In this document: in pieces, positions 29,590 through 35,355 of the stretch
Layout: each line of letters begins with the position of its first letter
Numbering within the stretch: position 1 is the first letter of the stretch
Source of the DNA: Acidimicrobiales bacterium
Lineage (GTDB): Bacteria; Actinomycetota; Acidimicrobiia; Acidimicrobiales; RAAP-2
Length of the DNA stretch: 40,336 bases
Reading direction: 5' to 3'
NCBI GenBank assembly: GCA_017883025.1
Contig: JADGOH010000003.1
Location: 1-40,336, forward strand
Notes under the pieces: model-generated
What the model saw: the letters and a program-made list of their open reading frames with translations, nothing else
Database searches by the model: none
Told to the model about the DNA's origin: nothing
Program-made: the position numbers and the translations under genes

Positions 29590-29895
29590 TCATCCCTCGG
29601 CCGCCAGGCGCTCCTGGTGTACATGGTTCCCGTTGCCGTTGCCACCGCCGTGGACGACGCGTGTCGGACCCTTGACCTCGGGGTAGAGGTGCTCGAGGCT
29701 GCCGGGCACGATGCGGCTCGACTCGATGAAGTCGTCGACGTCGGTCTCCTTCAGCCGGATGACCCGGCCGAACTTGTAGGCGGCCAGGCCGCCCTCGTCG
29801 ATGAACCGGTAGAGGCTGCGCAGGGTGACCCCGAGGCGCTCGGCCGCCTCCTTGGTGCTCAGCCAGCTGATGTGGTCACGGTCGGCGTCGGTCAT
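29590..29895 (-). CDS. Small excisionase/MerR-type helix-turn-helix protein
   Basis: WLSTKEAAERLGVTLRSLYRFIDEGGLAAYKFGRVIRLKETDVDDFIESSRIVPGSLEHL; TGATG overlap with the upstream BldD-like gene. Confidence 0.88.
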   Translation of the reverse strand: MTDADRDHISWLSTKEAAERLGVTLRSLYRFIDEGGLAAYKFGRVIRLKETDVDDFIESSRIVPGSLEHLYPEVKGPTRVVHGGGNGNGNHVHQERLAAEG

Positions 29896-30494
29896 CAGAC
29901 CGCGACGAGCAGCCCGAGCTCGTCCAGGCGGGCGCCCATGCTGTCCGGGGTGACCCCGAAGAGGCAGGCGATGGCCCGTACGTCCTCGGCCCGGATCGTG
30001 ATCATCCTGCCGTTGAAGTCCTGGCGGTGCACCTGGATCATGCTCAGGAACCGGCGCAGCAGATCCCGCTCCGGTCCGCTCACCGTGTGGAGCTTCGTGA
30101 GGTCGATCGCCACCTTGTCGGGCACCGTCGAGGCCGGGGCGGCACTCCGCCCGTTGGCCGACCGGTCGTCGGACGAGCCCGACGCCCCCCACCGACCACC
30201 CGGTGTGGCATCGTCGTTGGGCAGTAGCTGGTCCACCGGCACGTCGTAGAGCTTGGCCAGGCGCTGGAGGCGCGGAACCGAGATCGCCCGCTCCCCACGC
30301 TCGTAGGCGCCCAGCACGGACGCCTTGAACTCCTGGTCCGACATGGCCTCGACCGCCTGGAGCGACAGTCGCATCTGCTTGCGCATCGCCCGCAGCCGCG
30401 ACCCGACAGCGCGGGCGTAGGCGACCCTGGCCGCCTCCTCCTGCTCGTCGTCGTCCACTGCAACGACCGCCTTTTCCGTCACTGTCACTGTCAT
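29895..30494 (-). CDS. BldD-like transcriptional regulator (XRE HTH plus C-terminal c-di-GMP-binding-type domain)
   Basis: VGSRLRAMRKQMRLSLQAVEAMSDQEFKASVLGAYERGERAISVPRLQRLAKLYDVPVDQLLP; C-term VAIDLTKLHTVSGPERDLLRRFLSMIQVHRQDFNGRMITIRAEDVRAIACLFGV. Confidence 0.88.
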   Translation of the reverse strand: MTVTVTEKAVVAVDDDEQEEAARVAYARAVGSRLRAMRKQMRLSLQAVEAMSDQEFKASVLGAYERGERAISVPRLQRLAKLYDVPVDQLLPNDDATPGGRWGASGSSDDRSANGRSAAPASTVPDKVAIDLTKLHTVSGPERDLLRRFLSMIQVHRQDFNGRMITIRAEDVRAIACLFGVTPDSMGARLDELGLLVAV

Positions 30495-30570
30495 GGTCAA
30501 GCCCTCCGCTCCCACCGATTGCGCCCCTCGAGCCTGAGTTCGCAGTCCGAACCCGCTGTCGAGCTTCCGT

Positions 30571-30585
30571 CTCACGCAGCGTGAC
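30571..30585. promoter_or_regulatory. Predicted BldD box upstream of the BldD-like gene
   Basis: CTCACGCAGCGTGAC fits the Streptomyces BldD consensus NTNACNC(A/T)GNGTNAN at every specified position. Confidence 0.7.
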
Positions 30586-30652
30586 GAGAGCCGAGGCCCC
30601 TCACATGCCGTGTGAATTTCCTTAGAAGACCAGTTTTCCTCACGGAGCGTGG

Positions 30653-31453
30653 TTACGCAAGGGGCAGAACTACGCCATTGCGGAGGGCGCACAGGAGCGC
30701 CCCGGCCGTGACGGCGGCCGTCTCGGCCCGCAGGACGGTGGCGCCGAGGCCCACCGTGGGGCCGAACCCGACGCGCTCGGCCGGGTCCCATCCGCCCTCG
30801 GGGCCGATGGCCAGGGTCGGACGGTCGAGGCTCGGCGCCGACCCACCTGCGTCGGCGAGGGCCATCGGGGCCCCGGCCAGGGCGGCCACGTCCTCGAGCC
30901 GACAGACGGCGGTGACCTCCGGGAGTCGAGCCCGACGGCACTGGGCCGCCGCCTCGCGGACGACCCGCCGCAGTCGCTCGACCGACCTGGCCGCACGATC
31001 GCCCTCCCACCGCACCACCGAGCGTGAGGTTCTCAGGGGCACGATCCGGTCCACCCCGAGCTCGGTCAGCTTCTGGGCCACCCACTCGGGGCGGTCACCC
31101 TTCGTCGGGGCGAACGCCACCGTCACCTCGGGCCCCGGAGCGAGGTCCACCACGGCCGGCCCGTCGGGCACGAGCAGTCCGGCCGGGTCGGCGCCCCGGG
31201 CCCCCCTGGCCGGAACGATCGGGGCGATCCGGCACGGTACCCACCGCCCGGTCCCGTCGGCGGCGATCACGGACTCGCCGGGGCGGAGGCGGAGCACGTC
31301 GAGCAGGTGGCGCACGTCGGCGTCCTCGACCACCGGTGACCCGGGGTCGGCCACGAACACCATGGCGGCCGCGGCCACCAGGAGCGGGTCGGGGCCACGG
31401 GGCACAGGGGCTTCGTCGGGGGCCGGCGCCTCCCCCGCTCCTGCCGGGGGCAT
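30653..31453 (-). CDS. rsmE: 16S rRNA m3U1498 methyltransferase RsmE
   Basis: VRHLLDVLRLRPGESVIAADGTGRWVPC; VAQKLTELGVDRIVPLRTSRSVVRW; LAIGPEGGWDPAE. Confidence 0.93.
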   Translation of the reverse strand: MPPAGAGEAPAPDEAPVPRGPDPLLVAAAAMVFVADPGSPVVEDADVRHLLDVLRLRPGESVIAADGTGRWVPCRIAPIVPARGARGADPAGLLVPDGPAVVDLAPGPEVTVAFAPTKGDRPEWVAQKLTELGVDRIVPLRTSRSVVRWEGDRAARSVERLRRVVREAAAQCRRARLPEVTAVCRLEDVAALAGAPMALADAGGSAPSLDRPTLAIGPEGGWDPAERVGFGPTVGLGATVLRAETAAVTAGALLCALRNGVVLPLA

Positions 31454-34695: not shown

Positions 34696-35355
34696 TCAGG
34701 CGGTGGCGATGAACATGCGCTCGGTCATCGCCGGGCCGAGTGCGATGGCGGCGTCACCCAGGATCAACGTCAGGGTGCCGTCCGGGGCACGGGACTGGAC
34801 CACGGCGGTGGTGCCCGGGGTCAGTCCGTTGTCGCCCAGGTAGGTGAGCGAGTCCGCCTCGTGCTCGACGCTCTCGGTGATCCGCACCAGACGGACCTGC
34901 TCCCCCGGCTGCGCCTCGGCCAGGCGGCGCTGGCCGGCGCTGTCGGGCGTCACCCCGGGGATCGGGTTGCCATGCGGGCAGGTGGTCGGGTTGTCGAGCA
35001 GGACGACCAGGCGCGCCTCGACGTCGTCGCTGATCACGTGCTCCCACCGGCCGGCCTCGACATGGGCCTTGTCCCAGTCCAGCCCGATGATGTCGACGAG
35101 CAGGCGCTCGGCCAGGCGGTGCTTTCGGACGACCCCTTCGGCCAGTGCCTTTCCGGCCGGGGTCATCGAGATGCGCCTGCCCGTCCGGGCGATGAGGCCG
35201 TCCGCCTCGAGGCGGTCGAGCATCTCGGACACCGAAGGTGCCGCCTTGCCCAGCCGCTCGGCCAGACGGGCCTGGATCACCGGGATCCCTTCCTCCTCGA
35301 GGGCGAAGATCGTTTCGAGGTACTCCTCGACCGGCGGGTGGAAGCGGTCAAGCAC
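34696..35355 (-). CDS. DtxR/MntR-family metal-dependent transcriptional regulator
   Basis: EEYLETIFALEEEGIPVIQARLAERLGKAAPSVSEMLDRLEADGLI; HRLAERLLVDIIGLDWDKAHVEAGRWEHVIS; NPTTCPHGNPIPG; C-terminal SH3-like region. Confidence 0.94.
   Translation of the reverse strand: MLDRFHPPVEEYLETIFALEEEGIPVIQARLAERLGKAAPSVSEMLDRLEADGLIARTGRRISMTPAGKALAEGVVRKHRLAERLLVDIIGLDWDKAHVEAGRWEHVISDDVEARLVVLLDNPTTCPHGNPIPGVTPDSAGQRRLAEAQPGEQVRLVRITESVEHEADSLTYLGDNGLTPGTTAVVQSRAPDGTLTLILGDAAIALGPAMTERMFIATA

Follow-up and report, generated by a model that had tools for sequence, protein, structure and literature searches.

The window, i.e., the whole stretch of 40,336 nucleotides of DNA from an uncultivated Acidimicrobiales bacterium analyzed here, carries on its minus strand the gene order hrcA, dnaJ, rsmE, bldD, HTH_17, HIT protein, phoH, YbeY-like, CorC-like and era, where the YbeY-like and CorC-like names were assigned by eye. 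The rsmE-type gene lies directly upstream of bldD, and its stop codon abuts a conserved site that we refer to as the spacer operator. In the Acidimicrobiia loci that we examined, an rsmE motif mostly preceded bldD as well. On the other side, the start codon of the HTH_17 gene overlaps the bldD stop by one nucleotide (TGATG), and the two genes are likely co-transcribed. A protein with the pattern W[LM]STKEA...LYRFIDEG...PGSLEHLYPE stands directly behind bldD in most close relatives (L013–L073), and the HTH_17 protein is a conserved partner regulator. We also considered this neighbor as BldC, but found no credible BldC match among the solved structures, where the listed top match was a repeat-driven artefact. 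An earlier note, made from the sequence alone, had placed the BldD-like regulator and its box at 29590–30655, a range that also takes in the separate HTH_17 gene. Elsewhere in the window, a DtxR/IdeR-family metal-dependent repressor with a FeoA-like domain is encoded at 34696–35355 on the minus strand (192.6 bits, below the NCBIfam DtxR equivalog cut-off of 290).

Table 1 Features of the bldD locus and of the second promoter carrying the same box.
Feature	Position	Strand	Evidence
bldD orthologue, 199 aa (ATG at 30494, stop 29895–29897)	29895..30494	−	Pfam, PDB sequence search, AlphaFold/Foldseek, 25-orthologue alignment
HTH_17/excisionase-like gene, 101 aa	29590..29895	−	Pfam HTH_17 4.2e-14, TIGR01764
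rsmE-type 16S rRNA methyltransferase gene	30653..31453	−	Pfam PF04452 1.9e-34
Codons of the R157-x-D159-x8-R168-x-x-D171 signature and R173	29976..30026	−	alignment; contacts per PMC4151990
Perfect BldD box TCACGCTGCGTGA, presumed 5′ leader, auxiliary, lineage-specific	30572..30584	−	consensus scan, 31-region comparison
Conserved operator CCACGCTCCGTGA, CAC-N5-GTG core, between presumed −35 and −10	30640..30652	−	31/31 regions; class-wide enrichment
Presumed −35 TTGCGT, overlapping last codons and stop of rsmE	30655..30660	−	conserved TTGC.T; inference
Presumed −10 AAAACT, 17 nt from −35	30632..30637	−	A at position 2 and T at position 6 in all 31 regions
DUF1707/monooxygenase promoter loci	L127/L180 around G000:C64:8103		orthologues L181, L182, L184, L189

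In Pfam profile searches, the 199-residue protein matched BldD-like_C (PF21179) with 65.6 bits (cut-off 27, E 3.5e-18) and HTH_3 (PF01381) with 43.6 bits (cut-off 23). The HTH_3 domain spans about residues 30–92 and is followed by a disordered linker (about 95–122) and the BldD-like C-terminal domain (about 127–196). The score against the NCBIfam BldD equivalog NF050110 was 139 bits, below the cut-off of 250, and we therefore address the protein as a BldD-family orthologue and not as a curated BldD. When searched by sequence against the solved structures, it had BldD entries as sole strong matches, i.e., the DNA-binding domain 2ewt at 5.8e-16 and the C-terminal entries 4oaz, 2mc4, 5khd and others. 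We modeled the protein with AlphaFold from 25 orthologues (mean pLDDT 77, with a disordered linker), and this model retrieved the same entries in Foldseek, with rmsd values of 0.9 for the DNA-binding and 1.5–2.3 for the C-terminal domain; with a pTM of 0.40, the mutual orientation of the two domains in this model is unreliable. A single BldD-like_C protein was detected in the own genome, which is 72% complete, and PF21179 occurred in 93 of 297 sampled genomes of the phylum. Sequence, fold and single copy thus agree with the earlier proposal of a protein that is BldD-like over both domains. As judged from sequence and predicted fold, it is the Acidimicrobiia orthologue of the Streptomyces bldD product, a two-domain BldD relative.

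In Streptomyces, BldD is mainly known as a brake on development that depends on c-di-GMP. The ligand contacts described for BldD are Lys84, Ile110, Arg114, Asp116, Asn118, Ser123, Arg125, Asp128 and Arg130 (Tschowri et al. 2014, PMC4151990). Their equivalents here, taken from the PDB-search alignment with BldD numbering counted from the named Arg114, are K127, I153, R157, D159, N161, T166, R168, D171 and R173, i.e., eight of nine contacts are identical and the remaining one changes Ser to Thr. The signature R157-Q-D159-(FNGRMITI)-R168-A-E-D171 has the R-x-D-x8-R-x-x-D spacing of RGD-x8-RQDD in BldD, and both Arg and both Asp are kept, as the earlier note had read from RQD-x8-RAED. All 43 distinct orthologues gathered around the 199-residue protein carried this signature. 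From these residues, we infer that the protein binds c-di-GMP.

The own genome, as far as it is complete (72%), contains 11 GGDEF and 10 EAL domain matches, and a GG[DE]EF or SGDEF motif was present in all eight GGDEF loci checked. Among 61 relatives, GGDEF domains were found in each of the 46 that bear BldD, and BldD was missing from each of the six genomes lacking GGDEF (one-sided Fisher test 9e-5, ignoring shared ancestry and genome reduction). This co-occurrence independently supports a functional link of BldD to c-di-GMP. Five genomes of the same family (G019, G022, G023, G024, G027) have neither GGDEF nor BldD; these are mostly of 1.7–2.1 Mb, and the larger one, G024, has 3.1 Mb.

BldD might nevertheless bind its operator without needing c-di-GMP. 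At high concentration, the DNA-binding domain of Streptomyces BldD can form dimers even in isolation (PMC4151990), and four more distant orthologues (L204, L210, L211, L212) have lost the ligand signature and kept a well-conserved DNA-binding domain. In the protein studied here, however, the ligand contacts are all kept, and the presence of BldD tracks that of GGDEF; ligand-independent binding hence appears quite improbable. The genomes of the four signature-less orthologues (G026, G020, G040 and G037, respectively) retain 7–12 GGDEF proteins each, and in three of the four a recognisable upstream box is absent. They are possibly c-di-GMP-independent descendants.

Upstream of bldD, the TNAC-N5-GTNA box occurs twice, in perfect form at 30572–30584 and as imperfect but conserved CCAC-N5-GTGA at 30640–30652. 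The perfect box reads TCACGCAGCGTGA on the plus and TCACGCTGCGTGA on the minus strand and lies about 78–90 bp before the bldD start codon. It matches the consensus at all nine specified bases, as had been claimed before, and it is the sole exact match in the window. Moreover, its 13-mer is identical to that in the 21-mer oligonucleotide CCCCTCACGCTGCGTGACGGG of the BldD co-crystal (PMC4151990). Shuffling of the window gave 0.10 expected exact matches and at least one match in 9 of 100 shuffles; a perfect box anywhere in 40 kb is therefore unremarkable. A perfect box inside the bldD upstream region of about 160 bp is remarkable, however, with a chance of about 4e-4 by simple scaling.

A second box with at least eight of nine consensus bases, at 66–81 bp from the first, was found in four of 31 same-family regions, i.e., in the window, L012, L014 and L025. 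The earlier note had taken the leader box as the autoregulatory site: a site of this type does lie upstream of bldD, but the box that was singled out is kept in just these four regions. From this sequence comparison, the leader box is a lineage-specific addition, and the selected operator is the imperfect box at 30640–30652, which lay within the range of the earlier note and was unmentioned there. Between the two boxes, at 30602–30616, sits the inverted repeat TCACATGCCGTGTGA (TCAC-N7-GTGA). We rejected this repeat as a BldD site; its spacing is wrong and it was not seen in the aligned upstream regions of relatives.

The CAC-N5-GTG 13-mer of the imperfect box was present in all 31 distinct same-family bldD upstream regions. 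It is embedded in a conserved footprint, TTGCRTAA-CCACGCTCCGTGAG-cAAaACT, with a mean information of 1.38 bits per base; the corresponding values are 0.21 for the leader that follows and 0.51 for the end of rsmE that precedes it. Conservation of TTGCRTAA may stem in part from rsmE coding and its stop codon. The spacer box and the presumed −10 both lie past this stop, and the presumed −35 type also recurs at the DUF1707 promoter described below, which does not adjoin rsmE. TTGCGT and AAAACT are likely a −35/−10 pair; a strict sigma-70 promoter and terminator scan called none, these two elements included.

For more distant relatives, we analyzed 34 loci, 14 from earlier searches and 20 newly fetched, over 330 bp before the conserved N-terminal tyrosine. 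CAC-N5-GTG was found in 18 of these against 3.6 expected from dinucleotide shuffles, and five loci reached a consensus score of 8/9 or more where 1.0 was expected, with p values that are optimistic because some loci are interrelated. As a positive control, ten high-scoring Streptomyces-type BldD genomes gave CAC-N5-GTG in 10/10 (0.36 expected).

The spacer box matches seven of nine published consensus bases and differs at the first T and the central G; by our own very rough estimate, an equally loose match would occur by chance in a 29-bp footprint with about 8%. In the own genome, the strict consensus was found at two places compared with three for the reversed control, i.e., at background frequency. 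The match might hence be a coincidence and bldD not autoregulated at all; the perfect matches in about 9% of the 40-kb shuffles would agree with this. The genome-wide background, which the earlier note had named as an outcome that would refute its own proposal, is outweighed by the position-specific conservation at bldD in 31 of 31 relatives, and together with the class-wide enrichment upstream of bldD this makes a coincidence extremely improbable.

A real BldD orthologue could also act elsewhere while another regulator, e.g., the co-transcribed HTH_17 protein, binds the promoter footprint. This would fit the footprint (TTGC to ACT), which exceeds the length of a BldD box, the two deviating consensus bases and the HTH_17 gene that overlaps bldD by one nucleotide. 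However, variation among relatives keeps exactly the CAC/GTG half-sites, and the box center drifts to the canonical GCTGC/GCAGC in L024, L049 and L061. Moreover, the distant loci are box-enriched though a motif scan found no HTH_17 beside bldD. We therefore consider control by another regulator unlikely.

The locus probably harbors a BldD-type, c-di-GMP-dependent, autoregulated circuit, with its main operator elsewhere than had been proposed. With good, though not full, confidence we suggest that a c-di-GMP-caged BldD dimer represses its own gene via the spacer palindrome. A c-di-GMP cage on the C-terminal domains would hold two BldD subunits together, and the dimer would bind the CAC-N5-GTG palindrome between the bldD −35 and −10 and block RNA polymerase there. 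High c-di-GMP would then repress bldD, i.e., act as negative autoregulation. Repression would probably be strengthened by the perfect box that the window species and its closest relatives have in their leader, here 68 bp downstream of the palindrome. To the observed family, fold, ligand contacts, box position and diguanylate cyclase co-occurrence, this model adds the presumed promoter elements, the predicted c-di-GMP binding with its stoichiometry, and the presumed repressing direction. The direction of regulation cannot be revealed by sequence alone, and c-di-GMP-bound BldD might conversely activate its gene or, from the two boxes of the window, which are 68 bp apart, act both ways. With a site centered between −35 and −10, however, blocking of RNA polymerase is the normal outcome, and the known Streptomyces effect is repression, bldD itself being listed among the repressed targets of Streptomyces BldD in the passages on bldD of PMC4255298; we thus hold activation to be very improbable.

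Streptomyces BldD, as developmental master repressor, has a large regulon that takes in sporulation and cdg genes. The earlier note had also envisaged a possibly new regulon here. A broad new regulon did not hold up, as the strict consensus did not exceed its reversed control (two against three) and looser forms were near background: neither CCACGCTCCGTGA with one mismatch nor YCACGCWSMGTGR rose clearly above it in 21 genomes. A large regulon defined by the consensus was hence not apparent in the genome-wide scans. The spacer box has exact copies in other parts of the own genome (C50, C149), which were discarded, as they lie at unrelated places and recurrence was not seen. The eight GGDEF loci were also scanned for boxes, where most loci stop short of the gene start. 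More targets may exist, because the operator possibly follows the Streptomyces consensus less strictly.

The promoter design was searched as TTG-N5-YCAC-N-CW-NN-GTG in 14 same-genus genomes, which gave 25 matches compared with 10 in the reversed control. By position, most of these were bldD promoters, including that of G002 with the box CCACCCAGCGTGA. Five matches (G000, G005, G007, G011, G012) were one other conserved promoter. The leftover matches, at neither bldD nor DUF1707, were rejected as targets, as they are non-recurrent and do not outnumber the 10 of the control. The second promoter, TTGCGYAACCACGCTCCGTGTCAYCACAATTGG in its best-conserved form, lies between a DUF1707 gene and a divergent luciferase-like monooxygenase gene; by eye, the DUF1707 protein has a C-terminal membrane helix. 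Its GTG follows 7 nt after CACAAT, which suggests that the transcript is leaderless. In G007, the frame is shifted by the deletion of a single base, but the box and −10 are still recognisable, which argues for conservation of the DNA and not of the protein. G006 (L183) has a broken and G009 (L186) a degenerate form of the site. The same box at two promoters with differing −10 sequences is as expected of an operator.

As a tentative reading, which we regard as possible but rather doubtful, the Acidimicrobiia BldD may be a small c-di-GMP switch and not a developmental master repressor, with operators in promoter spacers and with only bldD (together with HTH_17) and the leaderless DUF1707 gene as recurrent targets in the genus. 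If true, the BldD circuit seen here could represent an earlier, pre-developmental state. The intact contacts and the conserved operator in a different class of the phylum suggest that c-di-GMP control and autoregulation may predate the developmental role. This question of age becomes testable through the conserved operator, the second promoter and the signature-less orthologues.

A convincing bldD orthologue has been reported in Acidimicrobium, from the same order of bacteria as the present host (Chandra & Chater 2013, PMC4255298). In its passages on bldD, this work placed bldD in very early actinobacteria and proposed that its roles in simpler actinomycetes may be non-developmental; it predates the c-di-GMP discovery, and these passages do not cover the ligand site or a lineage operator. 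Because bldD was already known from Acidimicrobium, the novelty lies in a control site that is conserved and in a single candidate target. In the literature searched, which mostly left subscription journals outside, we found neither the conserved spacer operator nor the second target described.

The RsiG-WhiG switch (PMC8325347) is likewise a Streptomyces developmental c-di-GMP effector that has also been reported from Acidimicrobiales, in three of four species, but it belongs to an unrelated family and works by an unrelated mechanism, i.e., as an anti-sigma factor. Compared with Streptomyces-type BldD, the Acidimicrobiales protein has about 37–40% identity and a longer N-terminus and linker. 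Synteny differs as well: in Acidimicrobiia, bldD stands behind rsmE, whereas three Streptomyces-type loci have it between efp/nusB-like and pyrR/pyrB-like genes, as named by eye from the translations. Also, the promoter box is CCAC-N5-GTGA here, and a large regulon defined by the consensus was not seen. In contrast, the two-domain architecture, both folds, the signature and eight of nine contacts are shared with Streptomyces BldD (PDB 2ewt, 4ob4, 4oaz, 5khd; PMC4151990), as is a box before the bldD gene itself; the leader box equals the crystal 13-mer.
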